A DNA stretch of 33,949 nt from Candidatus Aminicenantota bacterium (GTDB lineage: Bacteria; Acidobacteriota; Aminicenantia; UBA2199): positions 1 to 33,949 of the forward strand of contig JALHTJ010000225.1 in the NCBI GenBank assembly GCA_022865785.1, written 5' to 3'. Position numbers and translations under genes: made by a program. The notes beneath the pieces were generated by a model, which was not told where the DNA came from, ran no database searches, and saw only the letters and a program-made list of their open reading frames with translations. Of the stretch, positions 1 through 14,564 are shown piece by piece (within the stretch, counting starts at the first letter, position 1; each line of letters opens with the position of its first letter).

Positions 1-1
1 C

Positions 2-160
2 TTCGTCCGCAAAAAATTATCGGCCCTGGCCATGCCCCAGGAGATCGAGTTCGTGCCCGGCCTGCCCAAGACGCGCTCAGGCAAGATCATGCGCCGTGTG
101 CTGCGCGCCCAGGAGTGGGGCGAGGAGATCGGCGACATCTCGACTTTGGAGAACGATTGA
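2..160 (+). CDS. acs: Acetyl-CoA synthetase, C-terminal end (partial)
   Basis: The last 52 codons of an acetyl-CoA synthetase run in from the left edge. The enzyme activates acetate with ATP and CoA through an acetyl-adenylate. The visible part holds the conserved C-terminal motif [15 protein letters not shown], whose Lys in SGKIMRR is the catalytic lysine (the one acetylated by Pat/AcuA) in this family. The ending GDISTLEND matches the usual GDTSTLAD-type tail. The gene is intact to its stop as far as visible. Its 3' end is the left boundary of an A/T-rich island and is repeated twice inside that island. By hand alignment it differs from the copy at 4889-5047 at 19 of 159 bases. Confidence 0.93.
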
Positions 161-178
161 TCTAATGAAAAAAACGGA

Positions 179-199
179 GGGGGTGGAATTCGGACCCCC
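179..199 (+). terminator. G/C hairpin behind acs (possible terminator)
   Basis: GGGGGT at 179-184 can pair with ACCCCC at 194-199 around a 9-base loop, 18 bases after the acs stop. A T-rich stretch follows only some 20 bases later, so an intrinsic terminator is possible but not clear. Confidence 0.3.
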
Positions 200-424
200 C
201 TGACCAACGGCCTCCCAGTTTATTTTATTAGGTTCCCTTTAAATAAGTACTTATATTCAAAGCAACGAAGGCATTAAAATAAAACGCATCTCCAGAATAG
301 TGGCCGATCAAGACTATATTTTTTTTCAATGCAAAAAATATATAAATTCATTCATCTCATGAATCCGGTATTGCCAAAAATAACCGTTAATAAACCGACT
401 TGAGTTTTAAATAATATATTTCAA

Positions 425-508
425 CCCTGGCAGCCTACCCAATAAAGAATCATCTTTACTGGGTAGACGACAGCACCTCTCACCCCCATTTAAATTAGGG
501 GGCCAGGG
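425..508 (-). ncRNA. 84-base three-way-junction structured element
   Basis: An outer stem CCCTGGC (425-431) with GCCAGGG (502-508) encloses two hairpins. The first is a 14-bp stem with one G-T-type mismatch (435-448 with 453-466, loop ATCA). The second is a C5/G5 hairpin (483-487 with 498-502, competing with the outer stem for its last base). It starts 10 bases after the stop of the minus-strand Ntn-hydrolase gene. It may be the transcript's terminator or 3' structured end, or a separate small RNA; the strand is inferred from the neighbours. The rest of the gap 161-518 holds only the hairpin at 179-199, an ATAAGTACTTAT palindrome at 243-254, and a small ATTCAT/ATGAAT hairpin at 350-364. Confidence 0.4.
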
Positions 509-518
509 AGTTGCCAAA

Positions 519-1337
519 TTAAATTGTTGTATCAATCGACTGTTCTTTTGCATAACTTTTTCTCTTTCTAATTCTTCCAGAACATATTTCAAAATTTCTA
601 TTTCTCCATTCTATTACATCAATATTTTCTGAAAAAGAAATACGCATTCCATTGTAGTATCTGTTTCGTTTATGGAGAATTCCAAAGGCAAATCCACTTT
701 TCTCCGGCTTTCTATACAGACCAACTAGTTGAGCTACCCCCCCACTTTTTTTATCTGTCATTTTCTCTAATACAACAGAAAAGGTGTGAAAAACATTTCT
801 TGTAGTATTTGCATTTAAACCTTTTATACGCCCCCCATACTCTCTGTTAAAATCTGAAGCACCGGAACCCATAACATCAATTAAACCTGATATGACAGGA
901 AGTTTTAAAGCCTTAACTTGATAACTTTTATCCTTTTTCCAAATAAATTTGTATGCATAAAAGTCTGGATATCCCTTTTCAATAATATCTCTACAAATGT
1001 AAAGTATTTCAAATGAATTTAAAATTTCACTTTTGGGATAATGTTTAATTTCTTCAATTAACTTTTTTTTAAATTTATCAAATCTAGTTCTAGGGCCATC
1101 ATTTTCATCATATAAGATTTTTTTGTCAATCAATTCAATAATGGAAGGAATAACCATTGAAGGAAATAAAACATCACCACAAAATCCAATTATGTCGGGG
1201 AATTCATTTGAAAAAAAAGTTTTCCGGCAACTATCATAAAAATTTAGATTTCCCCAAGAAACCCTACTATCGCTAGCAATATATGCGGATGTATACCCAT
1301 GAGTATCTTTACCTATCCATGATACAACCAGTGTCAT
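519..1337 (-). CDS. HslV/proteasome-beta-like Ntn hydrolase
   Basis: The 272-residue protein begins MTLVVSW, resembling the MTTIVSV start of HslV, where Met removal exposes the catalytic Thr. The proteasome-fold landmarks follow in order: Thr2 (nucleophile candidate), Asp23 in ASDSRVS, Lys39 in CRKTF (HslV Asp17/Lys33 equivalents), Gly54 in GFCGD, and GSG at 156-158. It is longer than HslV (about 175) through a middle insert and a basic C-terminal tail. No ATPase partner (HslU, ClpX, AAA) lies nearby. The start ATG follows a weak GGGTGAT site. It is the last gene of the minus-strand run RT-TIR-Ntn. The fold call is good; the substrate and a protease role are inferred. Base composition is markedly A/T-rich. 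Confidence 0.6.
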   Translation of the reverse strand: MTLVVSWIGKDTHGYTSAYIASDSRVSWGNLNFYDSCRKTFFSNEFPDIIGFCGDVLFPSMVIPSIIELIDKKILYDENDGPRTRFDKFKKKLIEEIKHYPKSEILNSFEILYICRDIIEKGYPDFYAYKFIWKKDKSYQVKALKLPVISGLIDVMGSGASDFNREYGGRIKGLNANTTRNVFHTFSVVLEKMTDKKSGGVAQLVGLYRKPEKSGFAFGILHKRNRYYNGMRISFSENIDVIEWRNRNFEICSGRIRKRKSYAKEQSIDTTI

Positions 1338-1451
1338 ATATCACCCACTCTTTTATAATTTTTTTATACTAATAACATTCGACACACAGAAGCCCCCAAA
1401 CGATTTTCCATCTTGCTTGAGTACAATTTCCACTTCAAATAAACTCCATTA

Positions 1452-2564
1452 CTATAATTCTGAGTCATCTATAATTCCAGCTCGCTCAAGTAACTCAAGT
1501 ATACGTTCGATCCTTACTGGCGGATCAGTATGCAAAGGGAAAACAACTCGGATTGAAACCGGAAATGACATCTTAGTCGGAAATACAGGCATGGCTCCTG
1601 GAGTAACACGAAGTTCAGTCAATGCAAATAATGCATTCTCATATTCATAAAGATTTCCATGCTTATCTGAAATTTGAACTCCAAAGGCTGAAAGTCTTGA
1701 TGAAATTTTATAATTTGCAGTAAGTGCCCGAATCTCTTTGCGTAGAATAATAGAAAACCAAAAATATTCTGGGGATTGATTATAAATGGCATTTACTAAA
1801 GCAGGTAATAACAGTAATATTTTATCCAGAACAATAGGATCTACCGTTATCGAAACACTTGATGAGTTTTTATTTATATTTCGGTTGAGTTTCAATAAAA
1901 TGCCACTCCCGTGCATCGTTACTTCATCAATCAGCGAAATCGTTATATTTGCGTTCTTGAATACCTCTTTGATCGCCTCTTCTGGACTTGCGATTGCTTT
2001 AAGACTAGATCCATCAGGCGCTTGGTTGATCACAGTAGGGAAGTCAATTTCGATTCGGTCGACAAATCGGAGAGTTGATGAGAATGGGACGAGATGCATA
2101 GCATTTAGACTAGTCAGTTCAAGATAATCTTTCTCGTTAAAATCTTCGCGGAAATTAAGTTGATATTGTTGGTTTATGACAGCAATGAGATTATTGAGCC
2201 CATCGTGTGAACGAATATTAAAACCTTGTAGCAGACTCAGAGGCGGCCGAAGAGTTTCAATTGATGCGGAATTGATCCCAATCGGAATCACGCGGACACC
2301 GCGTGAATATGCATATCCAGATTCAAAATAGAGCCAAGAGGAGGTAACTGATGCTGGCGATACGGCAGTAAACATTATAGTCGCAGCTTGCAGTGCAGAC
2401 TCAATACCATGAATCCAATTTGTCCCAAAAGGAATGCTTTGTCCATCACTTGATAAAAAAAACTTCACAACACCAGCGGTTCGAGCATCGAGTTTACGTT
2501 TCAACAATTCTAGATATGCCACGTCCTTGGAAGAATGGCTTATAAATACAGTCGGTTTTTTCAT
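1452..2564 (-). CDS. TIR-domain protein (putative NAD-cleaving effector)
   Basis: The 370-residue protein has an N-terminal TIR domain (about residues 4-140). It shows the opening VFISHSSKD, a FFLSSDG box 2-like loop, and the SSWLYFESGYA segment whose Glu81 fits the catalytic glutamate of NAD-hydrolysing bacterial TIR domains (W-x3-E). The C-terminal 220 residues match no family I recognise and may sense a trigger or oligomerise. Bacterial TIR proteins with this Glu usually deplete NAD or make cyclic ADP-ribose signals in anti-phage defense. The gene has its own promoter-like sequence in the 170-base gap behind the reverse transcriptase, and the Ntn hydrolase follows 114 bases downstream. The ribosome site (GGAA) is weak. 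Function is inferred from the TIR family. Confidence 0.82.
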   Translation of the reverse strand: MKKPTVFISHSSKDVAYLELLKRKLDARTAGVVKFFLSSDGQSIPFGTNWIHGIESALQAATIMFTAVSPASVTSSWLYFESGYAYSRGVRVIPIGINSASIETLRPPLSLLQGFNIRSHDGLNNLIAVINQQYQLNFREDFNEKDYLELTSLNAMHLVPFSSTLRFVDRIEIDFPTVINQAPDGSSLKAIASPEEAIKEVFKNANITISLIDEVTMHGSGILLKLNRNINKNSSSVSITVDPIVLDKILLLLPALVNAIYNQSPEYFWFSIILRKEIRALTANYKISSRLSAFGVQISDKHGNLYEYENALFALTELRVTPGAMPVFPTKMSFPVSIRVVFPLHTDPPVRIERILELLERAGIIDDSEL

Positions 2565-2615
2565 GCTTGTTCCATAATCATATGAATAATCACTTTGCTC
2601 ATTACTTACTTTAAA

Positions 2616-2645
2616 ATTATGCGCCTAAGCCTGACATACTGTCAA
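2616..2645 (-). promoter_or_regulatory. Promoter of the TIR gene
   Basis: On the minus strand TTGACA (2645-2640), an 18-base spacer and CATAAT (2621-2616) give a near-consensus sigma-70-type promoter, with a start expected about 45 bases before the TIR ATG. It implies TIR and Ntn can be transcribed independently of the reverse transcriptase gene. Confidence 0.55.
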
Positions 2646-2655
2646 GTTTGGCTTA
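2626..2655. promoter_or_regulatory. Nested inverted repeat over the TIR -35 box
   Basis: TAAGCC (2626-2631) pairs with GGCTTA (2650-2655), and inside it TGACA (2632-2636) pairs with TGTCA (2640-2644). The inner repeat overlaps the -35 hexamer, so a repressor operator is a reasonable reading. No regulator gene is in this cassette. Confidence 0.4.
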
Positions 2656-2734
2656 AACCCATTTAGTTCCTCACTTTTCCAACGCGAATATTCAGCTGCG
2701 TTGCGTTACTCAATCCCCTTATGCTTTTTATCAT

Positions 2735-4834
2735 TCATGGCATAAGCGCCTCAAAATCCGTATATGTAGTGCGAAGCCGCCCCACAAACTGATCCCGTTC
2801 CCTGACCTTTAGGTACTGGGACTGCCCTGCTGTCTTTTTCTCGTAGGGATGAGACACAGGGAGAGCATTCCGGCGAGCGTTCATCACACGGAAGCAGTCT
2901 CCAATAGTCGGGCATTTTTTGGAAAATGATTTGCTCGCATCCAGCGTAACACCAAAATCAACTAATTGCCCATTCTTGTCGATAATTGTGCAAGCAGCCG
3001 GGTGTTTTATTGTTGCCAGATGTCTCTGAAGTGCTAAGAATATGGTCTGGTTGAAGGAGTTCTGACAAGCGAGCCAAAACGAACGACCGCTGGCGAAAGT
3101 CGCCTCGGCTTGTTTCAGAAGGCCTAGCGCGTGGACATATTCATTTAAAAGCAACTTGCACCATGACTTTACGGGCGGTGTACCATAGCGTGCAAACAGA
3201 ATCTCAGCGATTGGATCTACTTTAGCTCGTGGCGCAGAGATTACGCCCAACTCGTTAAGTGTGTTGACTACTTGGGTTGGCAGATCTTTGACGGTTAAGT
3301 TGAAGCTCGATGGTGTCAGTCCGCGCTCATGCAACATGGAGCAGACTGACAGCCCAGGCTCCGGGGTGCTACGACTAAGGAACATCCCGACGACCTCTCC
3401 CTTGCCAAAGGCATTGTTCGGCAAAACTGGCCCCAGAAAAGATTGAAGTAGAGGTGGCTGATACTTCAAGAATCTGCTTAGGTGAGCCAATGTTATTTCA
3501 TCCGATACACACAAGAAATGACAGGCCCCCCAGAGTTCAACAAAGTTTTCTGCCGACTTGTTCTTCGCGATATTTATAGCCCGGCTGATTAGTGAGTTCA
3601 GATTCTGAGCTGTCATTGATCGTGGATCTTGGCAATACTTGGCTAGAACGTGCCACGCTTCTCCACGGATGTATGGATATGGATTCTTAGTGACAAGTTC
3701 TAGGCATAATCGCTCAATTGGTTTTCGATAATCGAACTTACCAAGATAGACAAAGAAGGCGTCTGCATGCTCGGGATGCCTTGGGATGAGACGCAGTACG
3801 AGGTTGAGTAGATAGCTGTCTGGTTCTGCTCTATATAAACTGTAACGAAGGCGCGTTTTGTCTGTAACCTGAATTGGTTTCCCTCCAACCGCAGAGAGAA
3901 ATGTTTTCCTGGCTTGATTTTTCCCTATTTTCTCTCCGCCTATTCCTTCATGCTGTGGATCCGATATACTTGGAAGCATCCCTAATGCCTCTTGAACATT
4001 CTTAGCACACTTAATGGCAAACTTGCCAGTTTGCGGAATTAAACCCCGTTCACGGCAAAGCCTTTCGAGCTCAATGAGATAAATGCGAACTTCATCCTCT
4101 GTAGCCCCGAACAGTCGAACATCATCAACGTACCGTGTATAGCCACGTCGTTTCTGGAGTTTAAGATCGATAGGTAGAAGAAAACATTCCGCAAGGAAGT
4201 CCGACGCAAGAGGTCCTTGTGGCAATCCATGGGCATGGTCGGAAGCTGCGTGAGCAGAACTCCAAGTTCGCAAACACATCCCAATCCAATTCAGATCACT
4301 GTTTGACGTACGCGGATATATAGTCCGTAATAAAAGCTCATGGGAGATAGTATCGTAAAAGGCCGCTAAGTCGAAATCGCCGACCCATTTCATACCTCCC
4401 TCAAATTGTTTCTTGATACGCCCCTGAAATGCTCTGTAAGTCTCTCGCCAACTCCGAAAGAAAAAAATGCTATCGGATTTTTCCAGGATATTGCTGAAGA
4501 CGACTTTAAATTGGAGAGGAACACGAAACTTTTGCAGCTGTTTGGCAGCCAGATTCGCGAATGCTTGGAGTACTATCTGGTCCTCAACATTCAGCAAAGT
4601 GAGCGGTCGATGGAGGCCAGATGATTTTGGGACAAAGATACGATCAGGATGCCGAGGCTTGAATGTACCGCCAAGTAATCTCTGGCGAAGATCCTTCAGG
4701 TTAGCATCATGGGCAACCTCATATGCATAATAAATGGATCGATAAAGCCTTTTGTATTGGTGATTACTACCGGTTGTGATCCGTCGCCATGCAAGCTCAA
4801 GATTCTGCTTACTTGCGAGCATAGCAATTTTCAT
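2735..4834 (-). CDS. Defense-type reverse transcriptase (UG/Abi-like)
   Basis: The 699-residue protein carries a reverse transcriptase domain in its first 300 residues. RPLTLLNVEDQIVLQAF (77-92) is the finger motif. DFDLAAFYDTISH (153-165) is motif A with catalytic Asp155, GLPQGPLASDF (203-213) is motif B, and RYVDD (234-238) is motif C. The remaining 400 residues are predicted mostly helical, with a repeat-like stretch around 330-450, and have no maturase (X) or HNH domain. That excludes a group II intron enzyme and resembles the UG/Abi (DRT) lineages with helical C-termini. No msr/msd-like RNA or DGR template/variable repeat pair is seen next to it. It stands first in a minus-strand run before the TIR and Ntn genes. 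The exact RT class cannot be assigned by eye. Confidence 0.85.
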   Translation of the reverse strand: MKIAMLASKQNLELAWRRITTGSNHQYKRLYRSIYYAYEVAHDANLKDLRQRLLGGTFKPRHPDRIFVPKSSGLHRPLTLLNVEDQIVLQAFANLAAKQLQKFRVPLQFKVVFSNILEKSDSIFFFRSWRETYRAFQGRIKKQFEGGMKWVGDFDLAAFYDTISHELLLRTIYPRTSNSDLNWIGMCLRTWSSAHAASDHAHGLPQGPLASDFLAECFLLPIDLKLQKRRGYTRYVDDVRLFGATEDEVRIYLIELERLCRERGLIPQTGKFAIKCAKNVQEALGMLPSISDPQHEGIGGEKIGKNQARKTFLSAVGGKPIQVTDKTRLRYSLYRAEPDSYLLNLVLRLIPRHPEHADAFFVYLGKFDYRKPIERLCLELVTKNPYPYIRGEAWHVLAKYCQDPRSMTAQNLNSLISRAINIAKNKSAENFVELWGACHFLCVSDEITLAHLSRFLKYQPPLLQSFLGPVLPNNAFGKGEVVGMFLSRSTPEPGLSVCSMLHERGLTPSSFNLTVKDLPTQVVNTLNELGVISAPRAKVDPIAEILFARYGTPPVKSWCKLLLNEYVHALGLLKQAEATFASGRSFWLACQNSFNQTIFLALQRHLATIKHPAACTIIDKNGQLVDFGVTLDASKSFSKKCPTIGDCFRVMNARRNALPVSHPYEKKTAGQSQYLKVRERDQFVGRLRTTYTDFEALMP

Positions 4835-4840
4835 TAACCC

Positions 4841-4869
4841 ATCTTATTCCCTTGCTACAATGTTTTCAA
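4841..4869 (-). promoter_or_regulatory. Promoter of the reverse transcriptase gene
   Basis: TTGAAA (4869-4864), 17 bases and TAAGAT (4846-4841) precede the ATG at 4834 by only 6 bases. Transcription would start about at the A of the ATG, so the message may be leaderless. Confidence 0.4.
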
Positions 4870-4888
4870 TAAATTCGACCACATGAAC

Positions 4889-5047
<159 letters not shown>

Positions 5048-5461
5048 AGGGTGACTACCATCAATCAGTCCGCGATACGGACCAGCCGGCCCTAGCTATT
5101 CGCCCTCGTAATTACGTGTTGTGGTGATGTCACAGGCAAGTCTCTCTTCTCCAAGAGCAGGTCGGTGTGCACCCCCGACCACCAGGAGGCGGCGAGGATA
5201 GAAATGTGAACTATTCATGAAAAACTGGCGCCGACAGACTGGTCGTCTGGTCATCATATAATGTTATTACCTCGAAAAATCACTAAGTTGTAGTCCCGCC
5301 CATCTGCGCTTTGAATCAGTATTGAAGCGTATAAGGTTCACACTTGTCAACTTAACCAATTAAACATTTCAAATTATTAACAACACTCCAGCGGACCATA
5401 ACTCTTCAATACCTTGTTTGGTGGCCCCAGGTTGATGTGAATAGACATATCAAACAACTTT
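5048..5461. other. Intergenic region between acs tail 2 and lpxC-like gene
   Basis: I see no convincing gene in these 414 bases. There is a GTCCG/CGGAC hairpin at 5068-5082 shortly after the acs tail, and a GGTCGG/CCGACC inverted repeat near 5160-5180. The right half is A/T-rich and lies behind the minus-strand lpxC-like gene. Confidence 0.4.
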
Positions 5462-6367
5462 TTATCCACTTACATCAAGCTCCTTCGAAATGAATCGAAC
5501 CAGTTCATGATTGAGCGAATGGCTCGGTCGAAAAACATTCAGACTTCCTTGGAGCGGCATCCGAAGCAAAGCTAAATCCCCGAGCAAATCGAGAATTTTA
5601 TGTCTAATTTCCTCATCATTGCCCCGTGAAGTAGTTAGCCGTCCATCTCTGTAAACAATCATATTCGAGTCGGTAATTCGTTCCATTTGGTGAATTTCAA
5701 ATCCGGGGAGTTTCTTACGTGTCGTTTCTTCATCTTTAAACGGACCGAAAGCAAAAGTCCTCGCCCAAGCTAAATGAAGACAAAACATCGTAGGCGTGTG
5801 CCAATAACGAAGTTGCTGCACACCAATCGGATGTGGAAAATCAATTGCCGCAGAGACTACCAAACCAGGGTCAGGTCTTACATAAATAGACGACTCACCG
5901 AGCTTAATATCGAAAGGTCTTTCAACTATTATACGCTGTTGTGATGTACCAGGCTGGGCAACAATCTCGGCCCGAGCGAGTATATCTGCAAAAGGAAGGG
6001 CACTACCATCGAGGAAAGGTATCAAGGCTTCAGCATTAGTTACCACAATTAAGTTAGATATACATAGACCATGTACCGCGGCGAGAAGGTGCTCGGGTGT
6101 TTTTATTGCAACGGAATCGGATGCACGAAGAGTAGTCGTATGTTGACCATGCTCTTTGTCAATTGGAATGAGACGGTCATACGTCGCCGGCACTGGATCT
6201 CGAAGCCCACTAACGTGAAAAACTATTCCGGTTCCGGGATCAGCAGGTCGGAATAAGACTGTTCCCTCCCCATCAATGAATGCAGCTTTCCCTTTAAGTG
6301 AGCGAATCTCTGCAATAGTGGTTTGAGGCTCATCCACCTGGCGGAGAGCTACACATCGTTTTATCAT
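5462..6367 (-). CDS. lpxC: LpxC-like UDP-3-O-acyl-GlcNAc deacetylase
   Basis: The 301-residue protein has the length and all visible signature residues of LpxC, the zinc deacetylase of the committed step of lipid A synthesis. They are TPEHLL (Glu92 catalytic, His93 zinc ligand), FLDGSALPF (118-126), ARTFAF (202-207), RHKILDLLGDL with zinc ligands His256 and Asp260, and SHSLN with His283. It is probably catalytically competent. Its place is odd: it lies on the minus strand inside a defense-type cassette with A/T-rich sequence, not in a lipid A or cell-division cluster, and no ribosome site is clear. It may be an imported second LpxC, perhaps giving inhibitor tolerance, or a relative with another substrate. 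Whether the host has another lpxC cannot be seen here. Confidence 0.85.
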   Translation of the reverse strand: MIKRCVALRQVDEPQTTIAEIRSLKGKAAFIDGEGTVLFRPADPGTGIVFHVSGLRDPVPATYDRLIPIDKEHGQHTTTLRASDSVAIKTPEHLLAAVHGLCISNLIVVTNAEALIPFLDGSALPFADILARAEIVAQPGTSQQRIIVERPFDIKLGESSIYVRPDPGLVVSAAIDFPHPIGVQQLRYWHTPTMFCLHLAWARTFAFGPFKDEETTRKKLPGFEIHQMERITDSNMIVYRDGRLTTSRGNDEEIRHKILDLLGDLALLRMPLQGSLNVFRPSHSLNHELVRFISKELDVSG

Positions 6368-6482
6368 GCGCTACGCCATACGTGCTTTGAGCATCCTCCG
6401 ACTCTTACCACCAAACGTACAACCTCAGTTGCGCCGCGAAGTGTTGTCCGCCACATGCTATTATTAACTCTTTTGCAATTCA

Positions 6483-6935
6483 TTACTCTACCTTAAATTG
6501 TTTCTTGCTTTTTATAATCCCCTCAAGATTCCTGATTTCAGCTCTCAGTTTTTCAAAATCTTTTTTGCTTTCGGCATATTCAATTTTATTTTCATTAACT
6601 ATATCAGATGTTATCTTTGCTTTTAAATTCACATTTTCTATTTGAAATCCAAGTGATTTTATTCTTTCCTCTTGGTATTTTAAAGTTGTAATACTTTGAT
6701 TATTATCAAAAATTTTAAATAGAATTGGAACAATGAGTGCTATTGCAGCAACTATTGCCATTATTCGTGTAAGGAAAATCATTTTTTTTGCTAATTTCTC
6801 ATAACTTAATGTTGCCCTTGCAGTCAATACTGCACTAACAAATGGCATTTCGCTTGGAATCGTACTTTGATTTAAATGATCTACGATAGATTCTATGTCA
6901 TCATTCAGATATTGATGTGCTGTTTTCCTAGCCAT
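6483..6935 (-). CDS. Small one-TM coiled-coil protein
   Basis: The 150-residue protein has one membrane segment (about residues 52-75, FLTRIMAIVAAIALIVPILF) after a polar N-terminus. A charged, heptad-like coiled coil follows to the Lys-rich end. A GGAG ribosome site stands before the ATG. TATAAT on the minus strand (7013-7008) suggests its own promoter. I recognise no family. It lies directly behind the CD-NTase/SLATT pair and could be an accessory membrane component, but nothing in the sequence proves it. Confidence 0.6.
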   Translation of the reverse strand: MARKTAHQYLNDDIESIVDHLNQSTIPSEMPFVSAVLTARATLSYEKLAKKMIFLTRIMAIVAAIALIVPILFKIFDNNQSITTLKYQEERIKSLGFQIENVNLKAKITSDIVNENKIEYAESKKDFEKLRAEIRNLEGIIKSKKQFKVE

Positions 6936-7090
6936 ATTTTATCTCCTCGCTTAAAGTTTATTAAAATCATCTCAAATCCCTTGAGCATCCTTAAACCTAG
7001 ATCCGTCATTATAACCGTCAATTCAAGACCCAATTCTAATGTTGAATATGAACATCGCTACGTTTCCCAGCGTATGATTCCACCAACTCG

Positions 7091-7672
7091 TTAGCCTCTC
7101 TTCAATTCCTTCGGAAGAAACGCATCGATCTCATCATCAGAAAAGGTCATATCTGCCAGTTGTTTGAGAGCTTCTTGAGCCTTCTTGTATGCCTGATATG
7201 TCGTACTGGGAGCTCCAGAGTAAACATTGTGCAATTCCTCAAGAATTGCATCTCGTTCCTTTTGCAGAGATTCTATTGGCTTTTCCCCCAAGCGAAGGTC
7301 AGTGATTAGGGATAGATACTTTTCCCGGATGATCCACAAATCAGCGCCTGCTTGCCGGTGTTTCTGAGATAATTCGCCCAAATCATAATTCTTCGTATAG
7401 GCATTGAGAACAAGCAAGGTAGTCGATATGACTATCCCCAAGACAGCACCGACTTGCCCACCTCCAAAAACAGCCGCGATGAACCCGCCAGTTGTCAGGG
7501 CTGCAAGGATGATCTGCCATAATTTGATCTGCGAGAGCCGAGAAAGGAGAATGTCGGCGCATTTCTCGTGGGTCTTGTGGGAGTAAACCACGCGCCCAAA
7601 GCACTCACGCAACTGGCCTTCAAGAATCGCCCGCGAGTTTGGCGTATCGTTAGTCTGGGAATGAGGTTCCAA
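7091..7672 (-). CDS. SLATT-domain two-TM effector
   Basis: The 193-residue protein fits the SLATT family: a conserved amphipathic start LRECFGRVVYSHKTHEKCAD (21-40), two membrane helices (about 52-70 and 74-92), and a charged cytoplasmic helical tail. SLATT proteins are predicted pore-forming effectors linked to nucleotide-second-messenger synthases. I chose a TTG start at 7672 because GGAGG lies 6-7 bases before it. The open frame continues upstream to 7873, but that part overlaps the CD-NTase in another frame and does not look like SLATT sequence. The gene therefore overlaps the CD-NTase end by 23 bases, indicating translational coupling and a joint function: the cyclase makes the signal and SLATT permeabilises the membrane. 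Confidence 0.78.
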   Translation of the reverse strand: MEPHSQTNDTPNSRAILEGQLRECFGRVVYSHKTHEKCADILLSRLSQIKLWQIILAALTTGGFIAAVFGGGQVGAVLGIVISTTLLVLNAYTKNYDLGELSQKHRQAGADLWIIREKYLSLITDLRLGEKPIESLQKERDAILEELHNVYSGAPSTTYQAYKKAQEALKQLADMTFSDDEIDAFLPKELKRG

Positions 7673-8531
7673 AGATCTCCCTCCATTTCTGTATTGCCGA
7701 CCACTCCTGTTTTGGAGAGGCCGTTTCATGAGCGATAGCCTCACAAGAGATGTTATAGCAGCGTGTAGCTTTCCATTGAAAAAGGCCCTTTCCATAGACA
7801 CACTGTTCACTCCCTGGGGCTTTCCAGTACTCCTGCTCTTTGTCCTGATCAGCCATAAATTGAAAGAAGTCACGGCACATTAAATCGTAGTAGAAGTAGG
7901 ATTTGTCCTTGTATTGCCATCCATCTATGAACTGATAGGCTAGTGTATCAATCAGAAGACCGCCAATAGGAACAACCCATTTCTTCTTCCAGGCCCGCAT
8001 CATTCGGCATAGAGGCACCAGATTCCCATTGCAGGCGTTGTTCCTAGTTCGAATGGCTTCGATCTCTGGTTTCGGGTTTGTAGTCTTCCACGATCCGCCG
8101 CCGTGTGAATCGGGATAGGTGAAACTTTCTAATTTATTTGTGAACACTGGTACTATCTCAAAGGAAATCTCATCATCGAACGCAATGATCACGACCTGTC
8201 CATCTGCGCCGATTCGTGAGGACGAGTATGTCTTTTGCATTGAACTACGTACAGCTTGGAGGAGTGCCGATTGCCCATTTCCCTCGTGTATGTCGTACTG
8301 GTAGTAGAGATCGGATGGCAACTCAAAGATCATATCCAGATCGCTAAAGCCTTGGATGGCAGTGTTCCGCCCATAGGACCCAACGTAGAGGCTGTGGGAG
8401 GTGTCAGAGGTAGTATCCCAGAAGTCCGTATTGAGTCGCTGGGTTATGGATTTATAACGGGAGGAGATTGTTCCGCCATCCTGCACTTGGATGTTTGCAC
8501 AAAAGTCGCTAAACCATTCTCCCAGTCCCAT
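7650..8531 (-). CDS. CD-NTase (SMODS-type cyclic oligonucleotide synthase)
   Basis: This 293-residue nucleotidyltransferase has GSYGRNTAIQGFSDLDM (51-67), with Gly51-Ser52 and the metal-binding pair Asp64/Asp66. A third acid lies in SFEIVPVF (about Glu125). A helical C-terminal half follows with the KPEIEAIRTRN and CRMMRAWKKKW segments typical of SMODS enzymes. Such enzymes make cyclic di- or trinucleotides on phage infection in CBASS systems. An AGGAGA ribosome site precedes the ATG. The overlapping SLATT gene is the likely effector, giving a short (type I-like) CBASS with no Cap2/Cap3 or HORMA/TRIP13 gene in view. The product nucleotide cannot be told from the sequence. Confidence 0.88.
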   Translation of the reverse strand: MGLGEWFSDFCANIQVQDGGTISSRYKSITQRLNTDFWDTTSDTSHSLYVGSYGRNTAIQGFSDLDMIFELPSDLYYQYDIHEGNGQSALLQAVRSSMQKTYSSSRIGADGQVVIIAFDDEISFEIVPVFTNKLESFTYPDSHGGGSWKTTNPKPEIEAIRTRNNACNGNLVPLCRMMRAWKKKWVVPIGGLLIDTLAYQFIDGWQYKDKSYFYYDLMCRDFFQFMADQDKEQEYWKAPGSEQCVYGKGLFQWKATRCYNISCEAIAHETASPKQEWSAIQKWREIFGTSFPD

Positions 8532-8578
8532 CTATTCTCTCCTGAGCCTATACTAACATAATTATTAATTAAAAACCA

Positions 8579-9154
8579 TTATCGTTTCAACTCCACTCTG
8601 TTCCGCATTGCATGTGTAAGTTCTTGAAGTACAACAGAAAATTCTGCAATACTTTTTACGGGAAGATTGATGGAAGGACCATGAACTACTTCGTTCCGAA
8701 CTGCACGTAATCGTGTGACGGCTTTTGCCTCATCATCTTTCAGTATTCCTTCTCTTTTCAAACCTTCAATCAATTGAGGCATTTGAAGTGGAACCCCTGG
8801 CTTTGCAATACCAATAGTCTCAGCGATTTTGGAAGCTTCCATCTCAAAAGGATGCCATGCTTCAAGAACTGCAGCGCGCGGCGACACTTCAGCAAGCGAT
8901 TTATAATATTCAATCTCATTTTTATGTTGCATGGAATTTTCAAGAAATACTTTCTGTGTTGTAGTTGATTCGATCTCAGCCTTCGCTTTTGCAACCTGAC
9001 TTTCGAATTCAAGCTCAATATTTTTTATTCGTAAACGTTTTAAATCGGGAAGGATCTGATTCAATGTACGGCGAAGCATTAGGACAATAGCCACAGCAGC
9101 ACAAGGCCAAGCAATAGCTTTGAAGAGTGATGCGATAAAATTTAACCAATCCAT
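8579..9154 (-). CDS. Membrane-anchored HEPN-like protein
   Basis: The 191-residue protein has an N-terminal membrane helix (about 10-28), a coiled-coil linker (about 40-90) and a C-terminal helical domain ending in RLRAVRNEVVHG. RNEVVH (153-158) fits the R-x4-H motif of HEPN ribonucleases and of the DUF4145-like branch. The start at 9154 is chosen because GGAGG lies 5 bases upstream; an upstream TTG at 9202 has no such support. It lies 47 bases before the CD-NTase on the same strand, so it could be its first operon partner. The HEPN call is by motif only; many such domains are non-catalytic. Confidence 0.62.
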   Translation of the reverse strand: MDWLNFIASLFKAIAWPCAAVAIVLMLRRTLNQILPDLKRLRIKNIELEFESQVAKAKAEIESTTTQKVFLENSMQHKNEIEYYKSLAEVSPRAAVLEAWHPFEMEASKIAETIGIAKPGVPLQMPQLIEGLKREGILKDDEAKAVTRLRAVRNEVVHGPSINLPVKSIAEFSVVLQELTHAMRNRVELKR

Positions 9155-9273
9155 TTCCACCTCCATAAAGCCAAATATTTGTAAACCTAAATTTAATTTC
9201 AATTCCTGTCACTAAAAACACCTTTTCTACTCATGGCATACAATGTTTAATTTCTTATTCCTCAACATTTTTT

Positions 9274-9303
9274 TGGGCGGGGCGAAGGGGGAATCGAACC
9301 CCC
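9274..9303 (-). other. tRNA T-arm/acceptor-like fragment (possible att remnant)
   Basis: On the minus strand GGGGG-TTCGATT-CCCCC (9303-9287) is a perfect T-arm with the invariant TTCRA loop, followed by a C/G-rich acceptor-like TTCGCCCC (9286-9279). No D-arm or anticodon arm is found upstream and no CCA is encoded, so it is not a complete tRNA. Such 3' tRNA or tmRNA ends are common integration scars. Confidence 0.45.
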
Positions 9304-9345
9304 TTGCGCTCGCTCCCATATCTAAATGGTTGATGTTCCACCGGT

Positions 9346-9441
9346 TCATGCATTCCCTTGTAGTATTGGAAACATGTCGCCAGACCGCCCCAGGAGCGCT
9401 GTCCCCGCCGCTACACAAATCAATAAGACATTTGATTTCAT
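9346..9441 (-). CDS. 31-residue membrane peptide ORF
   Basis: An ATG at 9441 with a full GGAGGT ribosome site 4 bases upstream opens a 31-codon frame. It encodes a Lys-Ser-Asn start, a hydrophobic stretch VLLICVAAGTALLG, and a short polar tail. It ends 43 bases before the tRNA-arm-like hairpin. The strong ribosome site is the main support. It may be a small toxin-like or membrane peptide, or chance. The remaining sequence of the gap 9155-9675 (9442-9675 and 9155-9273) shows no other gene. Confidence 0.35.
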   Translation of the reverse strand: MKSNVLLICVAAGTALLGRSGDMFPILQGNA

Positions 9442-9675
9442 ATTGACCTCCATTATCCACCTAATCTTGATAATGACTGATGCCATCACCCTGATTAAGA
9501 ACGAAGCCATCAACATGATTCCAAATAGGAATAACCATATCCCTTCGAAACTCCAACCTAAACATGGGCAACCTCAATACCTTGTTTACAATCATTGCAT
9601 AAATCCTTTTTAAAAGAAATGGAAAAATAGTTTTTCAACTTTCATTTATGGTTTTATCTAAATTTGTTGAAAAAA

Positions 9676-10368
9676 TCACAACCATCTTTCAGTCACCTCA
9701 ACGATCTTGCTGATTCCTAGATGACATTCATTTAAAAAATCTATTACCGAGAAGTTCTCACCAGTAAAATGAAAATCCACCCAGATTACTCTTTCTACTT
9801 TTTGTGAAGGATGTGGTACTGGCATTTGTGTTTTTGGGTCAACAGGTACACCTCCAATAAATACTCCCTGAGAAAACCTAACATTCCCTGGAATCCAATT
9901 AACCTCACCATTTGGAAACGATACATGAACCTGTTCGATTTCCGTCCTTGTTTGCGCTACCAAACTTCCATGCTTATTCTCATTGTTGATTTTATTAAAC
10001 ACTGCGAGCCAATGAAAGCCTTTATTATAAGGTTGTACACATTCCAAATATTCCCAAAAATCTGGCGAGGACCCTTTTAGCCCAGGAAACCATTTTGCAG
10101 TTTTAGTTTCAAAATCCATCTTTGTCGAAGAAATAGGAAAGTAGAACTTCGCTTTTGGATCAGCAGATAAGCAATATTTTTCTCGTATGTCATGAGCAAT
10201 ATAATCTAAAATTGACCTCAAGTTTTCGAAGAAGTTTTTAATATCAATAAGAAGACCAGTTGAGACCTGTTGCGCATTTAACGATATCGAATATGATTTT
10301 TTAATGGTTTTCAAATCGGATTCACACCTTAACAGAAGTGCTTTTATATCATTTTCACGTTTTCCCAT
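9676..10368 (-). CDS. Uncharacterised HEPN-like helical protein
   Basis: This 230-residue soluble protein has a helical first half with FFENLRSILDYIAHDIREKY (about 48-67) and a later INNENKHG stretch. Both are typical of a group of hypothetical proteins related to HEPN folds, followed by a beta-rich second half. I see no clear R-x4-H active site. The start has a GGAAGGA ribosome site. The gene overlaps the toxin gene end by 14 bases, so it is the third gene of the antitoxin-toxin unit. It might be a chaperone-like or effector partner. Function is unknown. Confidence 0.6.
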   Translation of the reverse strand: MGKRENDIKALLLRCESDLKTIKKSYSISLNAQQVSTGLLIDIKNFFENLRSILDYIAHDIREKYCLSADPKAKFYFPISSTKMDFETKTAKWFPGLKGSSPDFWEYLECVQPYNKGFHWLAVFNKINNENKHGSLVAQTRTEIEQVHVSFPNGEVNWIPGNVRFSQGVFIGGVPVDPKTQMPVPHPSQKVERVIWVDFHFTGENFSVIDFLNECHLGISKIVEVTERWL

Positions 10369-10756
10369 TGAATCCTTCCTTATAATTTTTAATCATTTTT
10401 TTTATTCTTGATAAATCAGCATTTTCCTTTATGCTTTTAAAATAGATTTCAATTAAATCAACGCGATTGGAATCTGAATAATAAGCATATACGACTCGTA
10501 TTCCTGACATTACCCCCTTACCTTTTAATGAGCGGCAGGCGAATTTTTTGGCCTTGAAAACAGGAGGGTGATCAAATCCAAGATCAGTCAGCCGGAAAAC
10601 CCCATTATTATCCATTTCCAGCTTGTGAAATGGGACCAATTGAGAGGAAATGAAGTTTTCCAGATCTTCTTTAAGAGTTGGAAACCTTTTTAAAAGCTTC
10701 TTCAGATCCTTTTTAAACTCAGGAAGTTCGACTATTTCTTTGAATTCATTCGTCAT
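10355..10756 (-). CDS. RelE/ParE-like toxin of a Panacea TA module
   Basis: The 133-residue protein (start at 10756 preferred; an in-frame ATG also exists at 10801 inside the antitoxin gene) has the RelE-like order. That order is an N-terminal helix pair ELPEFKKDLKKLLKRFPTLKEDLENF, then strands with CRSLKGKGVMSGIRVVYAYY and VDLIEIYFKS, and a basic C-terminal helix. It would act as a ribosome-dependent or free mRNA interferase, or a gyrase poison as in ParE. It overlaps the antitoxin gene by 11 bases, as is usual for such pairs. The fold is inferred from pattern and context. Confidence 0.65.
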   Translation of the reverse strand: MTNEFKEIVELPEFKKDLKKLLKRFPTLKEDLENFISSQLVPFHKLEMDNNGVFRLTDLGFDHPPVFKAKKFACRSLKGKGVMSGIRVVYAYYSDSNRVDLIEIYFKSIKENADLSRIKKMIKNYKEGFNGKT

Positions 10757-11531
10757 ATTGTCTGACTGAATAGGGTGCGGTTCGATAGAAAACGGCTTCA
10801 TAAGGGATTATTTTCCCTTTTTCAGTGGTCATCCAGGGGATATCGTTATGGGAATACTCACTAATCTGGGCGGCATTCCAATCGGCGAAACGACAAAGAA
10901 TCTTTTCAATCATGTTAATTTCATTGGCCATGAGTTTTGATAAATCGGCAGGCCGACGTGGAAGATATTTCGTCTGCGGAAAACTGAAGTATTCACTTTT
11001 TACTTTTTCGATTTCCTCTTCCTTGATCATACAGTCTACAATTTTCTTGAATTCCACTGGAGTCGGACCATGATGATTTTTCTGATAGGAGGCGCCGATC
11101 AATTGTTCTTCATACATCTCGTAATAGTCAAAATCGATAAAATAAAGGAGCTTGTATAATACCGTTTCGCCAACATTGGGCAACGAACCGACTCTGCCCA
11201 AAATATACAACAACACTTCCCTGAACTTTTCCAGATTCTTTTGCGGAACGGAAATTCTTATTTCATTTTCGATTGCCGTTGGAGATTTTTCCTTCACTGG
11301 TAGGCTGATTTGTGGTGTGATCTCCGGGTTGATCAAGTTTTCCAGGGTAATATTGAATTTTTTTGCAAGAAGCACCAATTCTTCGGCGGTGATCTTCCTC
11401 TCACCACTCTCGATCTGGGATATCGCTGATCGCGAAATACCGATAATGGCTGATAATTTATCTTGACTGATACCTTCAATCTCACGGAGCTGTTTAATAC
11501 GCTTCCCTAGATCGATATTCATTTTATTCAT
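10746..11531 (-). CDS. Xre-HTH plus Panacea (SocA/DUF4065) antitoxin
   Basis: The 261-residue protein has an N-terminal Xre helix-turn-helix (about 7-62: LGKRIKQLREIEGISQDKLS, SAISQIESGER). Then comes a linker and a Panacea domain (about 100-255) with its signature LLYFIDFDYYE and GASYQKNHHGPTP. Panacea domains neutralise very varied toxins, and here the fused HTH suggests the protein also represses its own promoter. A GAGGGA ribosome site precedes the ATG. A strong promoter with two direct repeats lies immediately upstream. It is first in the order antitoxin-toxin-HEPN-like. Confidence 0.87.
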   Translation of the reverse strand: MNKMNIDLGKRIKQLREIEGISQDKLSAIIGISRSAISQIESGERKITAEELVLLAKKFNITLENLINPEITPQISLPVKEKSPTAIENEIRISVPQKNLEKFREVLLYILGRVGSLPNVGETVLYKLLYFIDFDYYEMYEEQLIGASYQKNHHGPTPVEFKKIVDCMIKEEEIEKVKSEYFSFPQTKYLPRRPADLSKLMANEINMIEKILCRFADWNAAQISEYSHNDIPWMTTEKGKIIPYEAVFYRTAPYSVRQYDE

Positions 11532-11548
11532 ACTTCCCTCGCAACATT

Positions 11549-11577
11549 ATAATAACATTGGTTTGATTTTCTGTCAA
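11549..11577 (-). promoter_or_regulatory. Promoter of the Panacea TA operon
   Basis: TTGACA (11577-11572), a 17-base spacer and TATTAT (11554-11549) on the minus strand form a near-perfect sigma-70-type promoter 17 bases before the antitoxin ATG. Confidence 0.7.
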
Positions 11578-11599
11578 CTTCTTGTTTGATTTTCTATCA
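11561..11599. promoter_or_regulatory. Two direct operator repeats for the HTH antitoxin
   Basis: GTTTGATTTTCTGTCA (11561-11576) and GTTTGATTTTCTATCA (11584-11599) are 15/16 identical and 23 bases apart, about two helix turns. Each contains a TGAT-N5-ATCA-type dyad (one base off in the first). The first overlaps the -35 box. This fits autorepression by the Xre domain. Confidence 0.6.
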
Positions 11600-11639
11600 T
11601 TAATTTAGCCAATTTACTAGAGAGTCTTATGATGTTCAT

Positions 11640-11696
11640 TGCGCCCAGGAATAGGGCGAGGAGATCGGCGACACCTCGACCCTGGAGAACGACTGA
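11640..11696 (+). pseudogene. Third, decayed copy of the acs 3' end
   Basis: The last 19 codons of acs ([11 protein letters not shown] to the stop) reappear here. The Trp codon TGG has become TAG, Ile has become Thr and the first Arg has become Cys. By hand count it differs from 4889-5047 at 5 of 57 bases and from 2-160 at 7. It is the shortest and most damaged copy, fitting the oldest displaced acs end. It lies just upstream of the TA promoter and marks the right end of cassette 2. Confidence 0.82.
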
Positions 11697-11908
11697 GGCG
11701 TCACTCAGGAGATACTACCAGTAGTCTTGCATTTGTTTTTCCATTTTCAATCCGCTACAATGATTTCGGTATTAATGAGTGAGAAATTGAGAGATGAATT
11801 TTCCCGCATCCAAGCTTCCAAGCTTCCAAGGCCCATCAGCAGCATCTTAATTTTACCCAACTCAAGGATCGAGCGGATTGTTTGCTACGCGGAAAAGCGG
11901 AAGGCACT

Positions 11909-11968
11909 GGCCAACAACAGTATGCAGCAGACGGCGCTGTACGCCGCCGCTGATGCTGAATGTTGGAT
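11909..11968 (+). repeat. Integron attC-like recombination site
   Basis: The ends are GGCCAAC (11909-11915, 6 of 7 to RYYYAAC) and GTTGGAT (11962-11968, perfect GTTRRRY). Between them an imperfect foldback pairs CCAACA with TGTTGG, CAG (11918-11920) with CTG (11956-11958), CAGC (11925-11928) with GCTG (11949-11952), and CGGCG (11932-11936) with CGCCG (11942-11946). Unpaired bases separate these stems as in attC hairpins, and the 60-base length is typical. The remaining sequence 11697-11908 holds no supported gene, only a short TCCAAGCT tandem near 11814-11830. Confidence 0.68.
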
Positions 11969-11993
11969 GGCAATCGAATGCTAAGGAGATGTA

Positions 11994-13247
11994 ATGACAA
12001 GAGAAGAATGTCTATTTTGTGATGGGCATCTCGATACAACGTTAAGAGCCCACCTAGCTTCGATTGGCACCAAGGTTGATGCTATTCCCCGCGATCAGTT
12101 CATGAACGCCCAGGTGGAAGAAGTTATTGAGCACATATTATCCGAAATGATTGTTGAACCATTGGTCATCTATGAAGACCGTGCCGAAATGGAGCAACGT
12201 GAAACCAAGATAGATGTTAGTGAATGGCGGGACCGCAATCCATTTGGAGATCGCGGGCCGATCTATGTCGCGGGCGTTTCCGTCTCGGTATCGATCCCAT
12301 TTACTGGAGATTCCTCGCTTTGGAAGTTGAGACCCAACCAATGGCAGACTATCTATCCACATGCGCGCGTCCTTGCAGGCCGAAGCCAGAGCAATGGACA
12401 CATTCAGATCGATTTGGCCCAACCTGCTGATGAAACGAAAGAACGATTCAAGCAGCGCTTAGACGAAGAGCTGAAGACAATTCGGTTCTATGTGCAATCC
12501 CAGAATCAGCAAGTCAATTCCTTCAATGCCAACTTGCGTGGTCAAATCCTTGCGGTTGTCAATGCCCGGCGTGATCGGCTCAAGAAGCACGAGGGTTTGA
12601 ATGACTTCCTTGGCATTCCTTTAAAGCGAAAGGAAGGCGTTCCGGCAATTGAGCCAGTAAAGATCGAACGGAAATTAGTCCGCCCTTTACCGCCAACACC
12701 CAAGTCTGGGTACAAACCTGAACCCGGAATAACAGACGAAGATTACTCTTATATTCTCTCGGTGATTCGTCATGAAGGGCGAACCTTCGAAACGACACCT
12801 AAGACTTTCGCAGTTCATGAAGAGGAAGCGTTAAGAGACATACTTCTTGCGCACCTCAATGGACATTATAAAGGAGACGCCACGGGCGAGGCATTTCGCC
12901 GCAGCGGTAAAACCGATATTCGAATTGAAGATGGAAATAGGGCTGCCTTTGTGGCTGAGTGCAAGGTTTGGAAGGGACAGAAAGAACTTTCTCAAGCTAT
13001 CGATCAATTGCTAGGTTACTTGACCTGGCGTGATTGCAAGGCGGCGATCATCATTTTCAACAAGCACAACGCAAGATTCAGCAGAGTTATAGAAACTATC
13101 CCCACAGTTCTTGCAGCACACCGCTTCTTTAAACGCCGTATCGATGTTAAAGAGGCTGGCGAATGGCAATTCGATATGACCTCGGGGGAGGATGTAGGAA
13201 GACATGTCCGTGTCCATGTATTTGCGTTCAATCTATTCGTGGGATAG
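11994..13247 (+). CDS. PD-(D/E)XK nuclease-like cassette gene
   Basis: The 417-residue protein ends in a restriction-endonuclease-like domain (about 270-400). An acidic helix EEEAL lies near 278, GKTDI has Asp308, AECK has Glu322 and Lys324, and Gln338 sits in the next helix. This is the order of PD-(D/E)XK nucleases. The N-terminal 200 residues include a CLFCDGH start and a helical middle part (about 145-200), with no family I recognise. AAGGAGATGTA gives a good ribosome site. It lies between an attC-like site and half of another, so it reads as a single integron-type gene cassette. A DNA-cleaving defense function is likely but inferred. Confidence 0.72.
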   Translation: MTREECLFCDGHLDTTLRAHLASIGTKVDAIPRDQFMNAQVEEVIEHILSEMIVEPLVIYEDRAEMEQRETKIDVSEWRDRNPFGDRGPIYVAGVSVSVSIPFTGDSSLWKLRPNQWQTIYPHARVLAGRSQSNGHIQIDLAQPADETKERFKQRLDEELKTIRFYVQSQNQQVNSFNANLRGQILAVVNARRDRLKKHEGLNDFLGIPLKRKEGVPAIEPVKIERKLVRPLPPTPKSGYKPEPGITDEDYSYILSVIRHEGRTFETTPKTFAVHEEEALRDILLAHLNGHYKGDATGEAFRRSGKTDIRIEDGNRAAFVAECKVWKGQKELSQAIDQLLGYLTWRDCKAAIIIFNKHNARFSRVIETIPTVLAAHRFFKRRIDVKEAGEWQFDMTSGEDVGRHVRVHVFAFNLFVG

Positions 13248-13249
13248 AC

Positions 13250-13289
13250 GTCCAACAAAGCGCTGCAGGGGCCGGGGCAACAGCGGCCC
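13250..13289 (+). repeat. Truncated attC-like site
   Basis: GTCCAAC (13250-13256) is a perfect RYYYAAC end, 2 bases after the nuclease stop. It is followed by AAAGCGCTGCAG and a GGGCCG/CGGCCC hairpin (13269-13274 with 13284-13289). No GTTRRRY partner follows, so the site seems cut off where the core chromosome resumes at about 13,290. Confidence 0.5.
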
Positions 13290-13336
13290 GCTCCTGATCT
13301 AGCACCTTGAATGGGAAATCCTACCCGGTAGAGAAG

Positions 13337-14005
13337 TCACTCCAATAGTTTCTCGATCCTTCTTGCCGCGGCGAAGAGGTCGGGTTCCACCCAGTCGGCG
13401 GTGGTGAAGTCCTGGCCGCGGGTATAGTCGTTGGGTATGGCGATGACCGGGCAGCCGGCGGCCTTGCCGGCCAGGACGCCGTTGCGCGCGTCCTCGAGCA
13501 CGACGCACTCCCCCGGCGGCAGCCCCAGGCGGCGGCAGGCGATCAGGTAGATCTCGGGATCGGGTTTGCCGCGCTCGAGGCCGTCGGCCGTCTGCAGCAC
13601 GTCGAAATAACCGCGTATTCGCAGCGTGTCGAGCGCGATGTCGAGGAACTCCCGCTGGGCGCCGGTAGCGACCGCCAGCTTCAGCCTGCCGCTGAACGCA
13701 TCCAGTATCTCAATAAGGCCTGGCATGGCACCCAGGTCGTTTCTCATTTTTTCCAGCATCAGCCTGTTGCGCCAGGCGAAGAGATCCTCTGGTGAAGTTT
13801 CGATCCCCAGTATTTCGCGCAGCAGGCGCAGCGACTCAATGGGCTTGCGCCCCATCAGCGGCCAGAGCTGCTCATCGCGGATTTCTTTGCCATAGGCGGC
13901 GGCCATCTCGCGTTCGGCGGCGAAATAGAGGCGTTCGGAGTCGATCATCAGCCCGTCCATGTCGAATATCAAGGCCGACGGAGGCAAAAGCGGTTGGTTC
14001 AGCAT
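13337..14005 (-). CDS. HAD-family phosphatase / beta-phosphoglucomutase-like
   Basis: This 222-residue HAD hydrolase has all four motifs: DMDGLMIDSE (nucleophile Asp and the +2 acid), Thr in AVATGA, Lys in RGKPDPEIY, and EDARNGV. The helical cap after motif I places it in the beta-phosphoglucomutase-like subclass I. Substrates are small phosphate esters such as sugar phosphates and cannot be told apart here. It is the first core-type gene after the island and is GC-rich. A TATAAT box lies 5 bases before the ATG. Confidence 0.88.
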   Translation of the reverse strand: MLNQPLLPPSALIFDMDGLMIDSERLYFAAEREMAAAYGKEIRDEQLWPLMGRKPIESLRLLREILGIETSPEDLFAWRNRLMLEKMRNDLGAMPGLIEILDAFSGRLKLAVATGAQREFLDIALDTLRIRGYFDVLQTADGLERGKPDPEIYLIACRRLGLPPGECVVLEDARNGVLAGKAAGCPVIAIPNDYTRGQDFTTADWVEPDLFAAARRIEKLLE

Positions 14006-14010
14006 TGTAT

Positions 14011-14016
14011 ATTATA
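14011..14016 (-). promoter_or_regulatory. -10 box of the HAD gene
   Basis: Perfect TATAAT on the minus strand ends 5 bases before the ATG at 14005. No good -35 is seen. If used, the transcript would be almost leaderless. Confidence 0.35.
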
Positions 14017-14186
14017 CACGATCTCCATGTCTTTCGCATCGCCTCGACTCTCCCCGACCTCCACAAAGCCTGGATCGGAGTTTTTTTTTTAGCGGCCGCC
14101 CCATTGCTTTCCACGTTTCATTGATCGCCTCTTTTCTTCCCCGCGCGGCGATTGACAATGAAATTTTTTTCGCTCAGAATGACGGT

Positions 14187-14564
14187 ATGGAGAAATTGCA
14201 AGCACGGCTTCCCAAGCTGGTCGCCTTGGCCCGCTGGCTGGCGTTCCTGGTCATTGTAATCGTCTCGGGAGCCATGGCCTGGAAGGTCATCGGCATATGG
14301 CAGGCATCCCTGGGTCTGCTACCCAACCTGAACAACGCTATCGTGGGGATCACCGCGCCCTGGCATCCCTTCTACACTTTCCTGCTGACCTGCTTCCTCT
14401 GCGTCCTGGGCGCCGTGCCCATGCTGCGCGAACGCCGCAGCCTGTCCGTACCGCGCCTGGTCTTCGAACTGGCTTATACTATTTTGGCCTTGTACCTGTT
14501 GTACACCATCCACGAAGTGCTCTTTGCCTCATTTTCCACAGCCGTATCCGGGCCGCTGCTGTAA
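14187..14564 (+). CDS. Small membrane protein, three TM helices
   Basis: This 125-residue protein has hydrophobic helices at about 15-35, 58-76 and 90-113 and short polar loops. I recognise no family. The start is the first in-frame ATG outside the antisense HAD gene; its ribosome site is poor. It is codon-biased like the core genes, which supports it as real. Confidence 0.55.
   Translation: MEKLQARLPKLVALARWLAFLVIVIVSGAMAWKVIGIWQASLGLLPNLNNAIVGITAPWHPFYTFLLTCFLCVLGAVPMLRERRSLSVPRLVFELAYTILALYLLYTIHEVLFASFSTAVSGPLL

Follow-up and report, generated by a model that had tools for sequence, protein, structure and literature searches.

Integron gene cassettes have been described in several settings close to the locus reported here. 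attC sites that stand in line with a gene and have no intI nearby are known as CALIN, and IntegronFinder 2 by default requires two attC sites for such a call (excerpts of PMC9024848). Defence genes have been found as integron cassettes (Darracq 2025, Getz 2025 and Kieffer 2025, as cited in PMC12444791), and insertion of cassettes outside integrons, at attG, has been reported (Loot 2024, as cited in PMC12901181 and PMC12444791; excerpts of the citing papers in both cases). Going by these excerpts, all three situations (a cassette that lacks an integrase, a defence gene as cassette and insertion away from an integron) have been described before; what is new here is an example in a little-studied lineage, the Aminicenantes, for which a single literature search for integrons or attC sites returned nothing.

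The window, that is, the whole stretch of 33,949 bases that was analysed, lies on contig C125 of a Candidatus Aminicenantota genome (G000; 3.05 Mb, 355 contigs, 94.9% complete). Its FtsH shares 65% identity with the Aminicenantes record and at most 56% with six other records, which tentatively agrees with a host in the Aminicenantes. In a variable slot between acs and a HAD hydrolase gene the window holds what we take, with a probability of about 85%, to be a stranded piece of an integron cassette array that lacks an integrase. The features are as follows, with attC scores from the covariance model R1 described below:

11641 to 11697, forward strand: third and innermost of the partial acs 3'-end copies, at the left edge of the acs-HAD slot (blastn to congener locus L058, 96.5% over 57 bases)
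11751 to 11908, no strand assigned: stretch that separates attC 1 from the downstream flank of acs, a possible remnant of an upstream cassette (homology to L063 ends at 11750)
11909 to 11968, forward strand: attC site 1, intact (R'' GGCCAAC at 11909-11915, R' GTTGGAT at 11962-11968; R1 35.4 bits, DNA fold)
11963 to 13306, forward strand: gene cassette as deduced from attC anatomy, starting just past the G of GTT in attC 1 and ending on the first R' base of attC 2
11994 to 13247, forward strand: cassette gene, 417 aa, PDC-S54, with a PD-(D/E)XK-like motif (PADLOC E 2.8e-128; motif alignment)
13250 to 13312, forward strand: probably a decayed attC site 2 (perfect R'' box, GTCCAAC; R' box, CTTGAAT; R1 15.1 bits, E 0.055; 5'-half motif)
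13337 to 14005, reverse strand: HAD hydrolase, the core gene right of the slot (Pfam HAD_2; congener homologues)

The locus resembles a CALIN in its attC sites in line with a gene and the lack of a nearby intI but differs in carrying a single strong attC, the second being decayed; another contig of the same genome, C287, fits the usual definition. The initial annotation had called the locus CALIN-like, which is fair for one strong and one weak site 1.28 kb apart, although the label rests on the weak site because, in the excerpts of PMC9024848, the IntegronFinder 2 default needs two. With the defence cassettes, as far as they are covered in the excerpts, the locus shares a putative anti-phage gene as cargo, whereas its host is uncultured, its PDC-S54 cargo is a defence candidate and there is no active integron. 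With attG insertion, on the same partial sources, it shares a cassette at a non-integron chromosomal place but differs in having two attC sites.

The attC sites and the gene between them

R1 is a calibrated covariance model of 15 attC sites aligned without gaps, with the window left out. Its sources were annotated class 1 resistance integrons (L072, L076, L077 and L078), a Gemmatirosa array (L071) and three environmental sites; the Gemmatirosa stretch is unannotated and lies beside a tblastn match to IntI, and its attC sites came from our own scan. Seventeen sites were aligned at first, and catB2, which has different spacing, and L069, which has 59 bases, were dropped. Three of the 15 (L070, L024 and L030) are on records found via a pattern derived from attC 1, the pattern itself matching elsewhere on those records. 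Covariation backs the two-helix structure of the model, since 12 of 18 pairs vary on both sides (as many in 1 of 500 shuffles) and the covariation score was reached by none of 500 shuffles. Over the window, R1 returned just two matches with E up to 10, at 11909-11968 and 13250-13312, and with filters off over positions 1-14500 the next match scored 9.2 bits.

The first of these, attC 1, is a 60-base palindrome that aligns ungapped to the 60-column model with the spacing of the reference sites, and its score has an E value of 1.2e-7 (33,949 bases, both strands). Relative to the consensus boxes RYYYAAC and GTTRRRY, GGCCAAC shows one departure and GTTGGAT none, and the inner L boxes are paired, with an unpaired extra base and canonical spacing, as is the criterion for attC. 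At -18.6 kcal/mol (DNA fold), the bottom-strand structure is equalled by 0 of 200 shuffles, and the top-strand fold was matched by 3 of 200. Judged by its sequence, attC 1 is a canonical attC, which upholds the 60-base site with a perfect GTTGGAT end proposed in the initial annotation; as such it would be recombined by IntI in the form of its folded bottom strand. Rfam scans of the window returned nothing, and Rfam seems to be without any attC family.

Relatives of attC 1 were found well beyond the Aminicenantes. A 22-base core pattern of the site matched 14 genome contigs, and R1 gave E < 0.001 at seven of these places (L022, L024, L026, L028, L030, L033 and L034), in records of Dehalococcoidia, Thiohalocapsa, Aminicenantes, Planctomycetota (two), Eisenbacteria and Coprothermobacterota. 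L031, L032 and L027 gave partial R1 matches of 16-20 bits, that of L027 probably being a chance match in coding sequence, and R1 matched none of the pattern places of L021, L023, L025 and L029. In blastn, attC 1 aligns with L022, L024, L028, L030 and L033 at 80-89% identity over 47-61 bases. IntI was above the cut-off in two of the nine searched genomes with pattern matches, and the contigs of L028, L031 and L034 carry IntI-like fragments, two of them with stops. Since its relatives occur across these records, attC 1 is of a widely shared attC type. It had 0 matches in plasmids and phages, and neither the core pattern nor a second attC 1 pattern matched any viral contig.

The second match is weak by itself, at 15.1 bits and E 0.055 (15.2 bits and E 0.023 with filters off), and all 60 model positions align over 13250-13312. 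Its R'' box, GTCCAAC at 13250-13256, begins two bases past the stop codon of the 417-aa open reading frame and shows no departure from RYYYAAC; the R' box, CTTGAAT, is without the G of the conserved GTT, the base at the crossover point of attC sites. Pairing of the L'' arm is modest: when the downstream 60 bases were shuffled 20,000 times, an equally good partner turned up 449 times. The pattern RYCYAACAARNCGCTGCAG, representing the 5' half of the site and picked after a site in congener G007 was known, has two matches in 142 genomes of the class, the window site and that strong G007 attC, and its reversed control has one. The exact 18-base half of attC 2 occurs in three stretches of viral contigs, two of them with one identical context; tried as attC sites, none was convincing (best 12.8 bits). 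Against plasmids, the attC 2 region gave one weak Streptomyces match (E 0.02).

Chance is less likely for attC 2 because it starts two bases beyond the stop codon, on the same strand and with a full-length alignment, and decayed sites of this score do occur, as the arrays of G007 mix sites of 11.5-19.7 bits with strong ones. We therefore regard 13250-13312 as quite probably a decayed full-length attC. The perfect GTCCAAC half-site of the initial annotation is thus present as a box, but the site is uncut at 13289 and continues as a weak full-length alignment. The proposed cassette layout is supported, with the gene starting 26 bases past attC 1 and GTCCAAC following directly on its stop.

The cassette gene, which likely has its own ribosome-binding site, encodes a protein that matches the PADLOC profile PDC-S54 at full length (E 2.8e-128 over residues 1-414), PDC presumably standing for phage-defence candidate; no Pfam or NCBIfam model matched, and the term PDC-S54 was not found in the literature searched. 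Residues D308, E322-x-K324 and Q338 form a nuclease-like motif, whose GKxD, ECK and Q elements do not vary among six aligned homologues, and we take this pattern to resemble that of PD-(D/E)XK nucleases. The product is probably a putative anti-phage PD-(D/E)XK nuclease, as judged from profile and motif. Profile comparison with the PDB found nothing better than E 0.2, and a single-sequence structure model was unusable (mean pLDDT 39.8). Relatives of the protein are found in 26 plasmid and two phage records (about 25-35% identity among the 22 matches listed). Of the other genomes of the class, 3 of 141 have one, and none was confirmed in viral contigs. In G119, a PDC-S54 relative lies, by eye, downstream of a gene resembling a type I specificity subunit. 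No attC adjoins the PDC-S54 relatives at seven other loci; at one of these, an R1 match of 17.8 bits lies some 2 kb away.

attC sites and integrases in the genome, genus and family

No intI above the curated cut-off was found in the source genome, at its 94.9% completeness over 355 contigs, in agreement with the initial annotation, nor in any of the 16 genus genomes. The XerC/XerD-like proteins of the source genome were rejected as IntI, none being above the cut-off; such matches also appear in all 14 control genomes, and the two best skip model positions of about 184-240. One of these best proteins is encoded after a gene that by eye resembles trmFO. Among 34 family genomes, only G052 has IntI above the cut-off; there, on contig C581 (L118), an intact IntI of 457.7 bits has an attC of 29.3 bits within 1 kb. 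The G052 enzyme is a candidate for an integrase that could act in trans.

With E up to 0.1, R1 matched 8 of the 16 genus genomes, including five matches in the source genome and six in G007; at E 0.001 it matched 8 of the 34 family genomes. The five own-genome matches represent four distinct sites, because the contig ends carrying C196:3083 and C287:84 overlap by 141 identical bases. The covariance scan and genome-wide search suggested by the initial annotation thus gave a scored site with others in the same genome, contrary to the outcome that it named as refuting (no attC score and no other attC-like sites in the species). Contig C287 (L097) carries three attC within 3.2 kb on one strand, a CALIN under the definition of at least two attC within 4 kb and no intI near. 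Its neighbouring genes are of defence type, with matches to PDC-S31, RiboL-PSP HEPN, GmrSD_N/NsnA and AbiEi/AbiEii, and so is a neighbour on C196 (L098), a DUF3024/PDC-S43 protein. In G007, a genome 60% complete with no intI above the cut-off, attC arrays lie on two contigs (C72 and C71; L099 and L100), C72 bearing four sites of at least 25.6 bits with weaker ones of 19.7 and 15.2 bits.

The acs-HAD slot

A close HAD homologue is present in 8 of the 15 other genus genomes (protein 82-90% identical), and DNA homology to these eight loci begins at 13341, 13343, 13353 or 13365, or by eye at the HAD stop codon at 13337. Nothing in the comparison with these congeners marks a junction at 13290. Homology to the core resumes with the HAD stop codon, at about 13337-13341, and the earlier claim that the half-site ends exactly where core sequence resumes fails.

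The acs-HAD interval is a hot spot of the genus (L058-L065), near-empty in L058 and with varying cargo elsewhere. In L058, about 50 bases separate the acs stop from the HAD stop; by eye, a methyltransferase-like gene occupies the slot in L059 and L063, and further congeners have different genes there. R1 found no attC in the slots of the eight congeners. Remnants of the acs tail also occur in L065, ahead of HAD, and in L060, past the start of HAD.

In the window, three acs 3'-end copies (1-160, 4875-5047 and 11641-11697) flank successive islands. The first two enclose a TIR gene and a reverse transcriptase of the UG19 DRT family, and the second and third enclose LpxC, a CBASS-type cyclase with a SLATT effector and a Panacea/HTH gene. 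The LpxC homologue (5462-6367) is oddly placed for a lipid A enzyme, being within a defence-type island. No integrase was found among the island proteins scanned. The cassette lies outside the innermost acs-tail copy, immediately to its right, and of the two mobility routes that the initial annotation saw meeting at this spot the adjacency stands and nothing further. Window positions 11690-11910 gave only short weak matches in the 34 family genomes, and no cassette gene is recognisable upstream of attC 1.

Proposed origin of a probable stranded cassette

The stranded unit would comprise attC 1, the putative nuclease gene and attC 2. Horizontal transfer would have brought the cassette in, and an IntI that acted in trans or has since been lost would have placed it, either at a non-integron spot or as part of a larger array. 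An upstream cassette and the attC 2 R' box would then have decayed, so that excision may now be poor. The gene in cassette position, the attC array in the same genome, the empty slot of L058 and the attC core in unrelated phyla support this account; against it stand the weakness of attC 2, the lack of a recognisable upstream cassette gene, the seven loci with PDC-S54 relatives and no adjacent attC, the eight congener slots without attC, and the choice of the 142-genome pattern once the G007 site was known.

The hairpin at 11909-11968 is palindromic and GC-rich, as a REP-like or terminator repeat would be, but its R and L boxes, spacings and single extra base are those of a class 1 attC, ungapped, blastn found no second close copy in the genome, and relatives of the site occur within arrays and share contigs with IntI-like fragments; we consider a mere repeat very improbable. 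A reading in which only attC 1 is real, the gene arrived by turnover of the acs slot and the trailing GTCCAAC is fortuitous, leaving no closed cassette, could draw on the E value of attC 2, its L-arm pairing in the shuffles and the PDC-S54 relatives outside cassettes. It would, however, have to explain why the second-best match in the window falls two bases past the stop codon, in the correct orientation and at full length, with the third at 9.2 bits (14.5 kb), and why the 19-base 5' half fits a pattern with just two places in 142 genomes, and we judge it unlikely.

As a variant of the stranded-array account, single cassettes may have been inserted directly into the chromosome at attG-type sites by IntI in trans. 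The absence of IntI above the cut-off from the 16 genus genomes, the short empty slot in L058 and the activity described by Loot 2024 (as cited in excerpts of PMC12901181 and PMC12444791) are in keeping with this, but a single event would leave one attC and not two, and the intergenic DNA of the empty site is too diverged for mapping crossover points; we hold the variant only tentatively. Doubtful, in our view, is the broader proposal that, in a lineage whose sampled genomes are all devoid of intI, foreign integrases drop single defence cassettes directly into chromosomal hot spots, with the acs-HAD slot fed independently by acs-tail-bounded islands and by integron cassettes. A two-site stranded piece of an array is the simplest account.

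The locus adds a naturally occurring cassette that lies outside an integron, with a putative anti-phage nuclease as cargo, in an uncultured lineage. It suggests that PDC-S54 is worth a phage test and that cassettes can supply the defence islands of bacteria that have no integrase of their own.
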